Below are positions 5,599 through 60,073 of a DNA stretch of 64,000 bases, in pieces (position 1 is the first letter of the stretch; the number at the start of each line of letters is the position of its first letter). The position numbers and the translations under genes were made by a program. The notes beneath the pieces were generated by a model. That model worked only from the letters and a program-made list of their open reading frames with translations. It did not search any database and was not told the DNA's origin. The stretch comes from Olsenella sp. An188 (lineage in GTDB: Bacteria; Actinomycetota; Coriobacteriia; Coriobacteriales; Atopobiaceae), in NCBI RefSeq assembly GCF_002160255.1, contig NZ_NFKF01000009.1, forward strand, positions 1 to 64,000. The letters are read 5' to 3'.

Positions 5599-5832
5599 GC
5601 TTAAAGATCCGGGGTTATGGCAGCATGCGTTGCGACGACGCTTAAAGATCCGGGGTTGTGGCAGCCCCGTCCCCTCCCCGTGACGACCTGGCGATAAGAA
5701 CGCCCAGGTAGTGGCCACTCCCCGAGGTTCTTCTCGCCGCATGGGGGCGCTCTGGGAGCGCCCGCCCTGCCACAACCCCGGATTTCTAAGCAACTTGGAA
5801 CGGCCGATTGCCATAACCCCGGATTGTTAAGC
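5599..5832. repeat. 41-base-period repeat array 1 (four units, facing blocks)
   Basis: Most of the 490-base fabH-birA gap is this array. Units start GCTTAAAGATCC and end GGGGTTRTGGCAG. They lie forward at 5599-5623 and 5640-5664, and reverse-complemented at 5767-5791 and 5808-5832. The step within each pair is exactly 41 bases. The 102 bases between the pairs hold GGTTCTTCTCGCC (5726-5738) and a perfect eight-base hairpin (5745-5752 with 5756-5763). Here the forward units read TTAAAGAT where the other arrays read TTAACAAT. No gene is seen. Confidence 0.85.
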
Positions 5833-14848: not shown

Positions 14849-15098
14849 GGCGAGAAGAACCTCAGATTATGTAGGTTCGGTGTGGTGCGTCCCGCCGCTC
14901 ACGGCCGTGCGTGCCCCCGGTCGTCGTGCTGCGGCCGCACTCAACGCCCGCACCCAACAGGTGCGTGCTCCGGCGCGTGACGAGGCCGCACTCCGCGGCA
15001 GGGCGCGAGAGGGTGCCCGCACCCAGGTTCTTCTCGCCCCCTGCGCGACCGCACCTCTCAAGTGCGGGCCTCAAGTGCGTGCGCCGGCGAGAAGAACC
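14849..15098. repeat. GTGCGGG/CCCGCAC block bounded by GGCGAGAAGAACC words
   Basis: This takes up most of the 495-base rplL-rpoB gap. CCCGCAC occurs at 14947-14953 and 15016-15022, and the inverse GTGCGGG at 15062-15068, with many looser GTGCG or CGCAC neighbours. Three GGCGAGAAGAACC words mark it: one at each edge (14849-14861 and 15086-15098) and one inverted in the middle (15026-15038). It is a diverged relative of the blocks at 29461-29680 and 31051-31290. For example GCCCGCACCCAACAGGTGCG here matches GCCCGCACCCACCAGGTGCG there. No coding sequence is supported. Confidence 0.7.
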
Positions 15099-26730: not shown

Positions 26731-29322
<2,592 letters not shown>

Positions 29323-29354
29323 GTAAGGGGGTTCCTTCCCGTGGTGGTTTCGCA

Positions 29355-29360
29355 ATTATA
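29355..29360 (-). promoter_or_regulatory. Candidate -10 box of clpC
   Basis: A consensus TATAAT on the minus strand lies 33 bases ahead of the clpC ATG. No clear -35, CIRCE or CtsR operator is visible upstream. Confidence 0.5.
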
Positions 29361-29460: not shown

Positions 29461-29680
29461 GGCCCGCACCGGGGGCCCGCACCGCACCTGGTGCCCGCAC
29501 TGGGGGCCCGCACCCACCAGGTGCGGGCCTCCCTTCGCCCTCGGCGGGCACTCGGCGTCGTCGCGCGGGCGCGGCACCGCACTCGCCGCCGCCGGCCCCT
29601 CGCACCGACCGCACCCCTCGAGTGCGGGCAAGAGGTGCGGGCGAGGGGTGCCCGCGCGAGGGGCTACGACGCGGGAAGCG
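29461..29680. repeat. Left arm of a 220-base inverted repeat around the nuclease-like gene
   Basis: CCCGCAC occurs four times in one orientation (29463, 29476, 29494, 29507) and GTGCGGG three times inverted (29521, 29622, 29635), stepped by 13 or 18 bases. As a whole it is about 90 % identical, inverted, to 31051-31290. The best stretch, about 110 bases ending GCGGGAAGCG at 29680, differs at only a few positions. The rest of the 599-base clpC-gene gap holds two GGCGAGAAG words (29713-29725 and 29762-29774 inverted) and no other gene. Confidence 0.85.
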
Positions 29681-29921
29681 CGGTGGCGCGGAGCTCCAAC
29701 ACGGGAGGCACGGGCGAGAAGGACCTCGCACTTGTGTCTCCTTTGCGAAGAAAGGCCGCGAGGTCCTTCTCGCCAGGTCATGGGCACTCGGCTGGGACAG
29801 GGTCGTCGAGCGGCCCGTCTTTCCGGCCGGCGGAGATTCGCGTAAGGCTGCCGAAAGCCTGGTGGAAGAGATCTGCAAGCCTCTGCGGCCACACTTCCCA
29901 CACCCGACCTCGGAGGCAGCC

Positions 29922-31028
29922 ATGGACGTCTTTCTTGCTGGCACGGATTCCCTCAAGCTTACACGCCTCGCGCGGCGCGACCCCGAGCTCCTGCTCGTCC
30001 CCGCAGGTGACGCGCACCTCACGCGACGCCCGGCGCCACCGGACCTGCGCGCCCTCAGGACCTGTCTGCCCGAGATCATGAGCGGCTTCTCCCCCGCCGC
30101 ACCGCTCGAGCTCGACTTCTTCACGCGGTCCTCGAGAAGCGAGTCGCGCTCGCTCTCCTCCCGCGCGCTTCTCGCCACCCTGCCCGAGGACGCCTTCCTC
30201 GAGGTCCTCCATTCCGACGGGGACCCGTGGGCCGATCTTGGCGACGAGACCTGCCGGCTATTCGTCGAGTCGCCAGGGCTCAACCTCGTTCGCATGGAGC
30301 AGAACCTCAGAATGATGGTCGAGCGCGGGGCGCTCAGCCCAAACGCGGCGCTCTTCAGGCTGCTCACCTTTCCCATGGAGGCATGCGGCTCGTACGTGCG
30401 CGACCCGGCCGACCCGGCTTTTGGCACCTGCCTCTTCGAGCTCGAACCCATCGCGACCCCAGAGCGCATCCTCGCCTTGCTCGACGAGGTGTCCGGCATA
30501 CGCGGGCTGCGCAACGCCCGGCTCGCCGCGGGCCTCTCGCAGTCCGGGTCGGGCTCGCCGGAGGAGACCCTGCTCTCGTTTGCCTTTAAGCTGGCGACGC
30601 ACCTCGGCGGCATCGAGTCGCCCGCGTTCCTGGAGAACGAGCCCATCGCATGGCCGTGCGAGGACCTCCCGTTCGTGGAGCACACGACGATGCGACCTGA
30701 CTTCCACTGGCCCGGGCACAGGACCGCGGCCGAATACAACGGCCGGGTGCACGTGAGCGAGGCGGCCTTTGAGGAGGACCAGCGGCGCATCCGCGACTAT
30801 CAAAGCTGTGGAATCTCCGCATATCCGGCGAGCTACAAGAACGTCCGCAACATCGCGGCCCTAAACAGCTACCTCGCGTGCGTGGCGCACTCGCTCGCAC
30901 GGCGGGAGGGGCCCGGCTATGAGTCGCACGTGCGATGGGCGCTCGCGGACGAGGGGTCCACGCACATGCGCACGGTTCTTCTCAGCCAGATGCTTCCGGC
31001 GGTCCCGAGCGAGAAGCCCTCCTGGTAG
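29922..31028 (+). CDS. Putative Vsr/DUF559-like (PD-(D/E)XK) nuclease-fold protein, copy A
   Basis: This 368-residue protein of unknown function starts at an ATG with GGAGG just upstream. Its C-terminal part (about 205-325) looks like the Vsr/DUF559 nuclease fold: SPEE (212-215), RPDFHWPGH with Asp260, AAEYNGRVH with Glu271, and EEDQRRIRDYQSCGI. These match the usual E..D..ExxG core. The N-terminal half resembles the region before such domains in AbiEi-like proteins, with a conserved ESP...L pattern (116-160). It is paralogous to 58471-59568, sharing PERILALL/PDRVLAHL and GSGSPEET/VRSGSPRET. It is the only gene inside the long inverted repeat. Nuclease activity is inference. Confidence 0.6.
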   Translation: MDVFLAGTDSLKLTRLARRDPELLLVPAGDAHLTRRPAPPDLRALRTCLPEIMSGFSPAAPLELDFFTRSSRSESRSLSSRALLATLPEDAFLEVLHSDGDPWADLGDETCRLFVESPGLNLVRMEQNLRMMVERGALSPNAALFRLLTFPMEACGSYVRDPADPAFGTCLFELEPIATPERILALLDEVSGIRGLRNARLAAGLSQSGSGSPEETLLSFAFKLATHLGGIESPAFLENEPIAWPCEDLPFVEHTTMRPDFHWPGHRTAAEYNGRVHVSEAAFEEDQRRIRDYQSCGISAYPASYKNVRNIAALNSYLACVAHSLARREGPGYESHVRWALADEGSTHMRTVLLSQMLPAVPSEKPSW

Positions 31029-31050
31029 GCGCGCGCACGCCCGGGACTGG

Positions 31051-31290
31051 CGCTTCCCGCGTCGGAGCCCCTCGCGCGGGCACCTCTCGCCCGCACCTCT
31101 TGCCCGCACCCGAGGGGTGCGGTCGGTGCGAGGGGCCGGCGGCGGCAAGTGCGGTGCCGCGCCCGCGCGGCGGCGCCGAGTGCCCGCCGGGGACGAGGGG
31201 AGGCCCGCACCTGGTGGGTGCGGGCCTCCAGTGCGGGCCATGGGTGCGGTGCGGGCCTCAGGTGCGGTGCGGGCACCAGGTGCGGGCCGT
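31051..31290. repeat. Right arm of the inverted repeat around the nuclease-like gene
   Basis: The reverse complement matches 29461-29680. CCCGCAC occurs at 31090, 31103 and 31204, then GTGCGGG at 31218, 31231, 31249, 31267 and 31280. It holds one more copy of an 18-base unit than the left arm. A GGCGAGAAGAACG word (31297-31309) ends it, just before the lysS stop. It takes up most of the 301-base gap and no gene is seen. Confidence 0.85.
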
Positions 31291-31329: not shown

Positions 31330-33564
31330 CTACTTGCCGAAGGTGTCGCGGTCCGGCGCGATCGCCTTCATCGCGTCGATCGTGCGCGAGAAGAGCTCGT
31401 CGAGCTCCCAGCCGCAGAGCTCGGCCCCCTTGCGGATGACCTCGCGGTCGCAGCCGGCGGCGAAGCGCTTGTCCTTGAACTTCTTCTTGAGCGACTTGAC
31501 CTCGAAGTCCATGACGGACTTGCTCGGGCGCATGATCACGGCCGCCCCGATGAGCCCGGTGAGCTCGTCCACCGCAAAGAGGACCTTCTCCATGGGCAGC
31601 TCGGGCGCCGGGAGGTCGGGGTTGTTGTCCGAGTTGTGGGACTGCACCGCGCGCACGAGCGCGTCGCTGCCGCCGGCCGCGCGCAGCCACTCGGCCGCGT
31701 AGACGGTGTGGCCCACCGGGTCGTCGCCGTGCTCCTCCCAGTCGAGGTCGTGCAGGATGCCCACGACCTCCCAGAAGTCGGCGTTCTCGGGGTCCATCTC
31801 GAGCGCGAACTGGCGCAGCACGCCGCCCACCGTGGCACCGTGCTCGAGGTGGAACTCCTCCTTGTTGTGCTCGGCGAGAAGCGCCAGCGCGGCCTCGCGG
31901 CCAAGTCCCGCGTCGAGCGCGGCGGGAGCCTCGACGACGGCGGCCGTGACCTTCTCGGCGTCGGCGGCGATGTCGTCCACCGAGGCGGCCGCGTTGTCCG
32001 TCACCGCGCCCTCGACCTGCGCCTGAATGTCCGCGCGGGTCACGGTCTCGGGCTTCATGGCCGGGAAGAGCAGCACGTCGCGGATGGCGGCCTGGTCGCA
32101 GAAGAGCATCACCATGCGGTCGATGCCGTAGCCGATGCCGCCCGCCGGGGGCATGCCGTACTCGAGCGCGCGCACGTAGTCGTAGTCGTAGCCCATGGCC
32201 TCGTCGTCGCCCAGGCCCTTGGCGGCCACCTGCTCGGCGAAGCGGCCCGCCTGATCGACGGGGTCGTTGAGCTCGGAGAACGCGTTGGCGTACTCGTGGC
32301 CGGCGATGACGAGCTCAAAGCGGTCGGTGAGGCGCGGGTCCTCCGCCTTGCGCTTGGAGAGCGGGGACACCTCCTCGGGGTAGTCGCAGACGAAGGTGGG
32401 GTTGACGATGGTCTTCTCGCCAAGCTCGTCGTAGAGCTCAAAGAGGAGCTTGCCGGCGCCCCAGCTCGGCTGGACCTCAATGCCGTTCTTCTCGCAGAGC
32501 TCGCGCAGGTGCTCGATCGGCGTGTCCATGTCCACGTGCTCGCCCACGCACTCGGAGGCAATCTCGGAGAGCGGACGGCTCGCCCAGGTGCCGGAGAGGT
32601 CGATCTCCTGGCCCTGGTAGGTGATGACCTCGTGGCCCTCCTCGCAGCCGCAGACCTCGCGCGCGATGGTCTTGAACAGGCCCTCGGAGAGGCGCTTCAT
32701 GCCCTCGAGGTCGGAGTAGGCGCAGTAGGCCTCCATCGAGGTGAACTCGGGGTTGTGCGTGAGGTCCATGCCCTCGTTGCGGAAGTTGCGGCCGATCTCG
32801 AAGACGCGCTCCATGCCGCCCACGATGAGGCGCTTGAGCGGCAGCTCGGTGGCGATGCGCAGGTAGAAGTCACGGTCGAGCGCGTTGAAGTGGGTCACGA
32901 AGGGCTTGGCGTTGGCGCCGCCGAGGATGGCGTGCATCATCGGCGTCTCGACCTCCATGTAGCCGTCGGCCTCCATGTAGCGGCGGATGAGGCTGACGAT
33001 CTGGCTGCGCTTGCGGAAGACGTCGCGCACCTCGGGGTTCATGATGAGGTCCACGTAGCGCTGGCGGTAGCGCACCTCGCGGTCGGTGAGGCCGTGGAAC
33101 TTCTCGGGCAGCGGGCGCAGGGACTTGGAGAGCACCGTCAGCGAGGTCGGCGAGACGGAGAGCTGCCCGCGGCGCGTGCGCAGCACGGCGCCGGTGGCGC
33201 CGAGGATGTCGCCGAGGTCGAGCTGGCTAAGAAGCTCCCAGCCCTTCTCGCCCAGGACGTCATGGCGGCAGAAGAGCTGGATCTGGCCGCTCACGTCCTC
33301 GAGCACGATGAAGGCCGCCTTGCCCTGCTTGCGGAAGGCGCGGATGCGGCCGGCGACGCTCACCACGTCCTCGGTGTCCGTGCCGTCGGGCAGCTCGGCG
33401 TAGCGCTCCTCGAGCTCGGCAGCATGCGCCGTGACCTCGGCGTGGATGGGATAGGGGTTCACGCCGGCGTCGAGAAGCGCCTGGCGGCGCGCGCGGCGCA
33501 TCGTGCGCTCGTCGGTTGCGGTTGCGGCGCCCTGGGCGCTCGCGGCGTTGGTCTCCTGGGCCAT
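31330..33564 (-). CDS. lysS: Lysyl-tRNA synthetase fused to a C-terminal HD-domain protein
   Basis: Residues 1-505 are a complete class II LysRS: OB-fold anticodon domain (about 65-150), motif 2 in FEIGRNFRNEGMDLTHNPEFT and motif 3 in GGIGYGIDRMVM. The synthetase normally ends near LLFPAMKPE. Here the frame continues through an Ala-rich linker (506-555) into an HD phosphohydrolase-like domain (556-744) with HNKEEFHLEHG and the metal pair GILHDLD (His605, Asp606). Such HD proteins are usually separate. The frame is continuous, so the fusion is real in this sequence. The ATG at 33564, with GGAGAG just upstream, is preferred to one five codons earlier. Confidence 0.93.
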   Translation of the reverse strand: MAQETNAASAQGAATATDERTMRRARRQALLDAGVNPYPIHAEVTAHAAELEERYAELPDGTDTEDVVSVAGRIRAFRKQGKAAFIVLEDVSGQIQLFCRHDVLGEKGWELLSQLDLGDILGATGAVLRTRRGQLSVSPTSLTVLSKSLRPLPEKFHGLTDREVRYRQRYVDLIMNPEVRDVFRKRSQIVSLIRRYMEADGYMEVETPMMHAILGGANAKPFVTHFNALDRDFYLRIATELPLKRLIVGGMERVFEIGRNFRNEGMDLTHNPEFTSMEAYCAYSDLEGMKRLSEGLFKTIAREVCGCEEGHEVITYQGQEIDLSGTWASRPLSEIASECVGEHVDMDTPIEHLRELCEKNGIEVQPSWGAGKLLFELYDELGEKTIVNPTFVCDYPEEVSPLSKRKAEDPRLTDRFELVIAGHEYANAFSELNDPVDQAGRFAEQVAAKGLGDDEAMGYDYDYVRALEYGMPPAGGIGYGIDRMVMLFCDQAAIRDVLLFPAMKPETVTRADIQAQVEGAVTDNAAASVDDIAADAEKVTAAVVEAPAALDAGLGREAALALLAEHNKEEFHLEHGATVGGVLRQFALEMDPENADFWEVVGILHDLDWEEHGDDPVGHTVYAAEWLRAAGGSDALVRAVQSHNSDNNPDLPAPELPMEKVLFAVDELTGLIGAAVIMRPSKSVMDFEVKSLKKKFKDKRFAAGCDREVIRKGAELCGWELDELFSRTIDAMKAIAPDRDTFGK

Positions 33565-33588
33565 TGTCTCTCCTGTCATCTCACAGAT

Positions 33589-42938: not shown

Positions 42939-43026
42939 GGGAAATTAATCCACATTTGGGCAGCCGCTCCCAAAGCCCAACTGGGGTTTTGTCGCCATCA
43001 CAAAGCCAAATGTGGATTATTTCCCC
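42939..43026. repeat. Long inverted repeat between rph and tRNA-Val
   Basis: The left arm (42939-42959) reads GGGAAATTAATCCACATTTGG. The right arm (43006-43025) is its reverse complement with one base missing. Inside, CCAAAGCCC and GGGGTTTTG can pair too. The A+T-rich arms are unlike the surrounding DNA. It could be a rph promoter-region hairpin or a small non-autonomous element. No gene is seen. Confidence 0.65.
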
Positions 43027-54507: not shown

Positions 54508-54810
54508 AGCGGCGAGAAGAGCCTCTCGACCGCTTAACAATCTGGGGTTATGGCAGAGAGCGCTGCCAGACTGCTTAACAATCCGGGGTTGTGGCAACGG
54601 CCCGTCTCAGGCTGCTTAACAATTCCGGGCTGTGGCAGGGCGCGGACCAACGATTGCTTAGCAATTCCGGGTTATGGCACGCCAGAGACGGCTTTGAGGT
54701 TCTTCTCGCCAGGCGATCAGTGCCACAACCCCGGATTTCTAAGCGCTCCACCGCCCCCGATTGCCATAACCCGGATTTACTAAGCCTCACCGCAAGCGGC
54801 GAGAAGAACG
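54508..54810. repeat. 41-base-period repeat array 2 (six units, facing blocks)
   Basis: This takes up most of the 488-base adh-mfd gap. Four forward units (54532-54556, 54573-54597, 54614-54638, 54656-54680) start GCTTAACAAT and end GTTRTGGCAN, stepped by 41, 41 and 42. Two reverse units (54720-54744, 54761-54785) are stepped by 41. Spacers of 16-17 bases are unrelated. Between the blocks lies GGTTCTTCTCGCC (54698-54710). GGCGAGAAG words flank both ends (54511-54523 and 54798-54810). The left one is inside a hairpin, AAGCGGCGAG with CTCGACCGCTT. The unit is itself a weak dyad around CCGGGG. Confidence 0.88.
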
Positions 54811-59819: not shown

Positions 59820-60073
59820 GCTTAACAATTCCGGGTTGTGGCAAAGTTCAACGTTTTTCTGCTTAACAATCCGGGGTTGTCCCCCTCTCGCCAGGCGAGA
59901 AGAACCCCTGGGTGGTGCCATAACCCCGGATTGTTAAGCATTTCGGGCAAGCGACGGATGCCGTCACTGCCATAACCCGGTTTTCTTAAGCGGCGAGAAG
60001 AGCCGCGTTGCCATAACCCGGAATTGTTAAGCGCACCGGGACCGTCCGTTGCCATAACCCCGGATTGTTAAGC
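59820..60073. repeat. 41-base-period repeat array 3 (six units, facing blocks)
   Basis: Forward units lie at 59820-59844 and 59861-59880 (the second loses its last five bases to CCCCC). Reverse units are at 59915-59939, 59967-59991, 60008-60032 and 60049-60073. The steps are 41, then 52, 41 and 41. GGCGAGAAGAACC (59894-59906) lies between the blocks and another word (59992-60004), in a GCGGC/GCCGC hairpin, follows the fourth unit. The remaining 84 bases to the stop of the GH13-GH77 gene show nothing else. It is in the gap (59569-60157) between that gene and nuclease-like copy B. Confidence 0.87.

Follow-up and report, generated by a model that had tools for sequence, protein, structure and literature searches.

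A predicted Vsr-type nuclease gene enclosed by inverted arrays of a dispersed palindromic word: a candidate repeat-associated cassette at the clpC-lysS junction of Olsenella sp. An188

Among domesticated enzymes linked with a population of tiny repeats in the genome of a bacterium, the RAYT-REPIN partnership is the best known. As set out in parts of PMC3116915 and PMC3733652, a single-copy enzyme lies beside its own cluster of palindromic repeats and several such pairs occur per genome; the repeats are extragenic, are mostly arranged as inverted doublets and diverge together with the enzyme. In the same passages RAYTs figure as HUH tyrosine transposases. The TIRtrons described in part of PMC3733652 consist of the gene of a tyrosine transposase, or TIRYT, flanked by inverted repeats from a moderately abundant genomic repeat family. 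The EDxHD type of nuclease is named in PMC3943268, the relevant passage of which places the phage-encoded I-Bth0305I among group I intron homing endonucleases. In the open-access PMC literature we found neither a DUF559- or Vsr-like gene described as the partner of REP-like repeats nor any account of repeats of Olsenella.

The present work concerns a stretch of 64,000 nucleotides from Olsenella sp. An188 (contig NZ_NFKF01000009.1, positions 1 to 64,000), referred to here as the window. An initial annotation of this stretch, made without database searches, had pointed to a lone plus-strand gene which separates the minus-strand genes clpC and lysS and is enclosed by inverted repeats of about 90% identity, built of GTGCGGG/CCCGCAC words and without an evident target-site duplication. 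These observations were borne out (Table 1). The two arms, 218 nt each with a spacing of 1368 nt, are 93% complementary; 202 of 218 positions are identical when one arm is inverted, the longest exact run being 36, and BLAST of arm against arm gave an E value of 4.7e-88, with a score of 268 bits for the locus. GTGCGG/CCGCAC words crowd both arms, and an internal hairpin of 13-14 bp lies inside each. A simple tandem-repeat artefact was dismissed, since the similarity of the arms continues through non-word sequence. Near the outer arm ends no target-site duplication was found, the longest common string being 8 GC-rich bases and compatible with chance, and an insertion sequence of the target-site-duplicating kind was rejected. 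The inverted GAGGTCCTTCTCGCC pair between the left arm and the gene folds as RNA with -43.7 kcal/mol (z -3.34). An Rfam scan of the window returned tRNAs only. The neighbouring LysS comprises 749 aa; its C-terminal HD domain reaches the Pfam cut-off, and 30 of the 31 Thermophilibacter/Olsenella genomes have the C-terminal 200 aa.

Table 1. Positions in the window of the cassette, its neighbours and related repeat elements.
Feature	Coordinates	Strand	Basis or remark
Dispersed W2 element, order ++--	5603..5828	.	
Dispersed element, GTGCGG word type	14935..15072	.	9 word matches
clpC, left neighbour	26731..29355	-	ORF and conserved junction
Left inverted arm	29464..29681	+	array of GTGCGGGC word
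Inverted pair of GAGGTCCTTCTCGCC, a genome-wide motif; perfect over 17 bp, upstream of gene	29713..29774	+	
Nuclease-like gene, 368 aa	29922..31028	+	AbiEi-like N-half and Vsr/EDxHD-like C-half (predicted)
Right inverted arm	31050..31267	-	word array extends to about 31290
lysS, right neighbour, C-terminal HD domain	31330..33579	-	ORF and conserved junction
Dispersed inverted pair of W6, word beside family member at C13:50 kb	42943..43022	.	
Dispersed W2 element, order ++++-	54536..54740	.	
Second nuclease-family gene, 365 aa	58471..59568	-	profile matches
W2 array (AACAATCCGGGGTTATGGCA), 6 copies, upstream of second gene	59824..60069	.	

The ATG start codon of the enclosed gene at 29922 is preceded by GGAGG, and orthologues start at the same place or a few codons away. 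Named relatives of the protein are titled Thermophilibacter, Olsenella or Atopobiaceae. Searches of the 368-aa protein against Pfam, NCBIfam, PHROGs and PADLOC gave no match. Among 22 aligned relatives, none matched a Pfam family, DUF559 (PF04480) and MTES_1575 (PF18741) included, at E 0.1, and a single one matched PADLOC weakly (E 0.035); two family members of the own genome are weakly similar to MTES_1575 and one weakly to DUF559. Sequence comparison with solved structures produced three matches at E 0.42 to 0.73, of which two are coat proteins and one is an enzyme of a racemase family. A structure model was built on 29 sequences (mean pLDDT 91.4), and the first 205 residues were also modelled alone (pLDDT 91.9). 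Foldseek against the PDB returned nothing below E 0.37 for the full protein and nothing below 0.7 for the N-half; the Vsr-like and AbiEi chains were ranked only in a second look by VIA. There, residues 212-327 align with the catalytic domain of I-Bth0305I (3r3p, Z 9.4, 95 residues, rmsd 2.6 Å), and 102 residues align with Vsr (1cw0, Z 8.5, 2.9 Å); two mitochondrial ribosome chains fit the C-half about as well as Vsr (Z 8.8 and 8.3). For the N-half, AbiEi ranked first (6y8q, Z 6.2, 122 residues, 4.3 Å), a weak match below the level of trust advised for the tool, followed by Rv2827c (Z 4.5). E215, D260, H277 and D286 are invariant in the 22 aligned relatives, 16 of which lie at the clpC-lysS junction, and in the seven family members of the own genome. 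These four residues fit the EDxHD type, to which they may correspond one by one. H254 and H277 are the only invariant histidines in the 22 relatives, and an HxH pair is absent. Of the Vsr/DUF559-like protein proposed in the initial annotation, the Vsr-like part is thus supported by the predicted fold and conserved residues, and the Pfam search of the 22 relatives returned no DUF559.

TnsA (1t0f) also appears among the fold matches of the C-half with Z 6.0, and relatives of the protein are found at other loci, as would be expected if the locus were a transposon that moves as a unit, with a Vsr/TnsA-like transposase and the arms as its ends. We regard this as very improbable: besides the missing target-site duplication, there is one close copy of the gene in its own genome (plus six paralogues at 27-35% identity), the gene recurs at the same junction, and the arms vary in length and have no fixed ends.

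To follow the junction across the genus, 31 Thermophilibacter/Olsenella genomes, one per species, were compared. The junction could be assessed in 28 of them, G016 and G022 being excluded by contig ends and G026 because LysS gave no match. The gene is present at the clpC-lysS junction in 16 of the 28 genomes, absent in nine and replaced by another gene in three. It has the orientation of the window in nine genomes (G000, G001, G006, G007, G011, G014, G017, G021 and G029) and the inverted one in seven (G008, G009, G013, G020, G024, G025 and G030). At the nine gene-free junctions there is a spacer alone, of 136-449 bp, which carries dyad elements too. In G012, G027 and G028 (L112, L115, L124) the junction holds a gene which we interpret from its sequence as that of an acyltransferase-like membrane protein. 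The arms, the gene, both orientations and the gene-free sites are thus established as patterns that exist between species. The initial annotation had taken the segment for a possibly flippable unit and had proposed a search of relatives for empty sites and for both orientations; both were found, the idea of a flippable unit is supported between species, and the gene with its arms is not a fixed feature of this place.

Parsimony requires at least two changes of orientation on the ClpC+LysS tree and three on the gene tree; therefore, to judge from these trees, the gene has flipped in place more than once within the genus, between species. For junction occupancy the minimum is four changes on the ClpC+LysS tree. 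This species tree rests on fragments of ClpC and LysS, its bootstrap values have not settled, and many forks remain open. Orientation is uniform within the close clades G013/G024/G030, G008/G009 and G011/G017/G021. Since clades agree in orientation and the arms measure about 220 nt or less, misassembly was rejected as an explanation for the occurrence of both orientations. The presence of both orientations across species could also suggest a phase-variation switch, in which the cassette inverts within a population and the gene is read, or not read, by read-through from lysS. The gene does oppose the direction of lysS in the window, and arms of 218 nt with 93% likeness and an exact run of 36 nt could recombine. 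Close clades are nevertheless constant in orientation, just two to three changes are needed overall, and the arms of the seven inverted members are only 64-75% alike. A switch of this kind was rejected as the main reading, and we hold it to be highly unlikely.

Furthermore, the arms were compared between species. We relied on comparisons of spacers only, because comparisons of flanks with unmasked neighbour genes were spoiled by coding matches. An inverted match of spacer against spacer was found at all 16 occupied sites (64-95% identity over 48-220 nt). With spacers only, fifteen of these sites score higher than any of 192 pairings of genomes that differ in word class (maximum 46.8 bits); the arms of G020, with 31.1 bits, are not distinct. 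The best-scoring upstream flank of another species matches the window arm with 62% over 268 nt. As the two window arms are 93% alike, they have, as far as such similarities tell, recently been duplicated or homogenised. In eleven members, namely the seven inverted ones together with G006, G007, G014 and G029, the arms are merely 64-75% alike, and homogenisation would thus be episodic.

Five lineage-specific arm words were distinguished: GTGCGGG, GTGYCGG, GTGYAT, GTGCAC and GTGCCCT. The word class changes four times on the gene tree, which is the minimum for five classes, as against seven times on the species tree; for G007 the automatic label was GTGCGGG (3 vs 2 counts), and this genome was grouped with G029 in the arm comparison. 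Several genomes illustrate the difference between the two trees. G025 falls with G008/G009 by ClpC+LysS (98/98), not by the gene, and its word is GTGYCGG. Species markers place G020 with G000/G006 (93/92), the gene places it with G008/G009 (100/99), whose GTGYAT word it shares. G014 is the sister of G007 by species markers (100/99), and G007 pairs with G029 by the gene (100/100). That the word class goes with the gene is an established pattern, and on these trees the arm word appears to follow the gene lineage rather than the species.

The dispersal of the words was assessed by pattern counts. The palindrome CCCGCACYNNNNNRGTGCGGG has 13 sites in its own genome, two in the arms and 11 elsewhere, as compared to 0-2 in the 30 other genomes and 0-1 for the reversed control. 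GCCAGGTGTATYC, the word of G008/G009, occurs in 35 copies in G008 and 13 in G009, three of each at the junction, and in at most four copies elsewhere, with up to nine for the reversed control. GCCGRCACTYATRAGTGYCGGC, with up to two mismatches, is commonest in G014 (29, vs 4 in its species sister G007); this pattern also accepts the GCCCGC form, so that the counts for GTGCGGG genomes are mixed. Most of the sites counted lie apart from the cassette. Palindromes resembling GCCGRCACTYATRAGTGYCGGC also occur in many species of the genus as pairs set at a constant distance, either 101 or 114 bp, e.g. at G011 C9:16685/16786, G016 C5:17107/17208 and C11:106893/107007 of the own genome. The palindrome pattern was adopted as the dispersal test after the 9-mer AGTGCGGGC had proved uninformative: alone, it was not enriched within 464 kb sampled from the own genome (24 vs 35 for the control). 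A blind BLAST matrix of arms against samples of nine genomes gave no clear diagonal (2.6 vs 2.5 sites per 100 kb at 30 bits, 0.86 vs 0.43 at 34 bits); elements are too rare in the 100-kb samples, where counts of word classes are likewise too sparse. Within these limits, the genome-specific dispersal of the tested words is established. The arms belong to a dispersed repeat family, which, like the further family members and the REPIN/RAYT parallel described below, is absent from the initial annotation. The idea put forward there that the repeats are recognition sites is favoured, since the arm word differs from one gene lineage to another and recurs throughout its own genome.

A further motif, GCGAGGTCCTTCTCGC, was seen in or beside many word elements. 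With up to three mismatches it has 1016 copies in the own genome (reversed control 126), among them 24213, 26701, 35485, 37734, 54512 and 54694 of the window, and in samples from nine genomes of the genus its core TTCTTCTCGCC reaches 7-22 copies per 100 kb (vs 0-1). An uptake sequence, or another signal acting across the genome, is a possible role of this motif.

By profile search at E 1e-20, seven members of the nuclease family are present in the own genome, i.e. six more besides the cassette gene, and each is adjoined by a different palindromic word. Several gene-word pairs within one genome are thus established. For the second nuclease-family gene of the window this word is W2, which adjoins it on one side only. 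The own genome contains 40 copies of W2, the 30 other genomes 0-2. In the 464-kb sample we counted 31 matches for W2 (15 of them in the window), 18 for W4, four for W6, four at two places for W7 and two for W3, each with a control of 0; W5, tentatively assigned to one paralogue, showed no enrichment there (3 vs control 4). All W2 and W4 clusters with more than one site are ordered plus then minus, and 29 of 31 sites of W2 and 13 of 18 of W4 fall outside called genes. Three of the seven members have long inverted repeats that span the gene, as does P0002, a further gene of the own genome (C15, L196:2504-3610); the other members have one-sided or weakly two-sided words. Seven genomes of the genus yielded 7-13 profile matches to the family each, and the family is present in 95 of 120 genomes and 51 of 67 genera of the order.

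P0002 carries word arrays of seven and eight copies on its two sides. It matched AbiEi in PADLOC (6.6e-6), the nuclease-family profiles did not match it, and its nuclease end is our interpretation of the sequence. At its junction, with neighbours judged from sequence, other relatives of the 368-aa protein occur in G003, G007, G012 and G014, the one in G003 opposite in direction to the three others. The PADLOC match of P0002, the weak AbiEi match of the cassette N-half, the patchy presence of the gene and its exchange between species would all suit a defence or toxin-antitoxin nuclease, a possibility raised in the initial annotation. The words would then be operators, their dispersed copies self-markers or decoys, and an AbiEi-like autoregulation would explain the flanking repeats. 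The cassette gene, however, stands alone between clpC and lysS and has no partner gene, PADLOC did not recognise its protein and gave one weak match among the 22 relatives, and arms of 200 nt on both sides together with scattered doublets are more than an operator requires. We therefore consider a defence function distinctly unlikely.

The association of gene and repeats was finally examined in unselected genes. In samples of nine genomes, 284 genes were called with a crude gene caller, and four of them had an inverted match of at least 40 bits from flank to flank. Three of the four are nuclease-family or AbiEi-like genes (in G006, in G014 and P0002 of the own genome); the fourth encodes an RHS-repeat/zinc-ribbon protein (G017 L235:4626-6383) with an inverted repeat of 85 bp and 88%. 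A second test required a word score above 90 with at least two copies on each side. Of 30 homologues of the second gene, which share 39-100% identity within the genus, 19 passed; two of the 30 loci lie at contig ends (L240, which passes, and L266, with 113 bases on one side, which fails). Two of 283 called genes passed as well, one family member and P0002, and none of the 278 unrelated genes did. Only one of the four family members that had entered the control set by chance passed; two-sided arrays are thus common in the nuclease family, not universal. Outside the genus none of 23 loci passed, five of them with flanks shortened by contig ends; L275, L283 and L291 have two word copies on each side at lower scores.

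These controls bear on the reading in which the gene is a bystander. The words would be ordinary REP-like repeats, acting as terminator, nucleoid or supercoiling sites, and the gene would occupy a permissive spacer and be flipped passively by RecA. Such repeats are indeed present in many spacers without a nuclease gene, one-sided arrays adjoin other genes, dyad elements occur at gene-free junctions and the arm palindromes give very stable RNA hairpins. This reading does not account for two-sided arrays at 19 of 30 family homologues and none of 278 unrelated genes, for a word class that tracks the gene lineage and not the species, or for the fact that the three words counted across the genus are nearly restricted to genomes that hold the corresponding cassette. 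On balance, we judge it unlikely.

The reading we prefer, to which we give a probability of about 0.55, is that of a repeat-associated nuclease cassette, a RAYT/REPIN-like partnership in which a Vsr-type nuclease takes the place of the HUH transposase. The cassette would consist of one gene, for a protein whose N-half is AbiEi-like and whose C-half is a nuclease of the Vsr type (EDxHD), inside inverted arrays of a lineage-paired word (GTGCGGGC). We suppose that the protein binds its own word and nicks or cuts there. Repair from another copy would then spread word doublets to new intergenic sites, and could also copy the cassette into homologous clpC-lysS junctions of related strains or replace the cassettes there. 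The arms would serve as homology blocks, recombination between them keeping them alike and flipping the gene; such inversion may also take place within a strain.

Only tentatively would we extend this to an independent class of REP-like replicators in the Atopobiaceae, in which each AbiEi-like/Vsr-type nuclease spreads and maintains its own palindromic words, the code drifts as restriction-enzyme specificity does and cassettes are swapped between species at fixed junctions. If true, a second, Vsr-type solution would mean that such arrangements arise repeatedly, the palindromic intergenic repeats of these Atopobiaceae would have an origin, and many natural enzyme-word pairs per genome, their homologues and words already known, would be at hand for decoding how such nucleases read DNA.

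When set beside the known systems, the cassette protein, with an extra N-half, flanking repeat arrays and no Pfam match, differs from Vsr and from DUF559/MTES_1575. I-Bth0305I is the best structural match of its C-half, and the E, D, H, D set is conserved; I-Bth0305I differs in being a phage-encoded member of the group I intron homing endonucleases. We know of no dispersed cognate words for I-Bth0305I. AbiEi, the antitoxin of a type IV toxin-antitoxin system, is weakly matched by the N-half; the cassette has no partner toxin gene and adds a nuclease half. The cassette resembles the TIRtrons in its inverted flanking repeats drawn from a genomic repeat family, and its protein is not a tyrosine transposase like the TIRYTs. 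Likewise, with no conserved HxH and a Vsr/EDxHD-like predicted fold, the enzyme is not a RAYT, and in contrast to REPIN-RAYT systems its arms are long arrays and the enclosed gene has flipped between species. In other respects the likeness to REPIN-RAYT is close: a single close copy of the gene in its own genome with word arrays on both sides, the W1 palindrome at 13 sites, dispersed, extragenic and mostly inverted doublets of W2 and W4, several different pairs of enzyme and repeat within its genome, and a repeat class which co-diverges with the enzyme (four changes on the gene tree vs seven on the species tree). By this analogy, the cassette protein probably works like a RAYT, i.e. it would bind, cut and so copy its own words.
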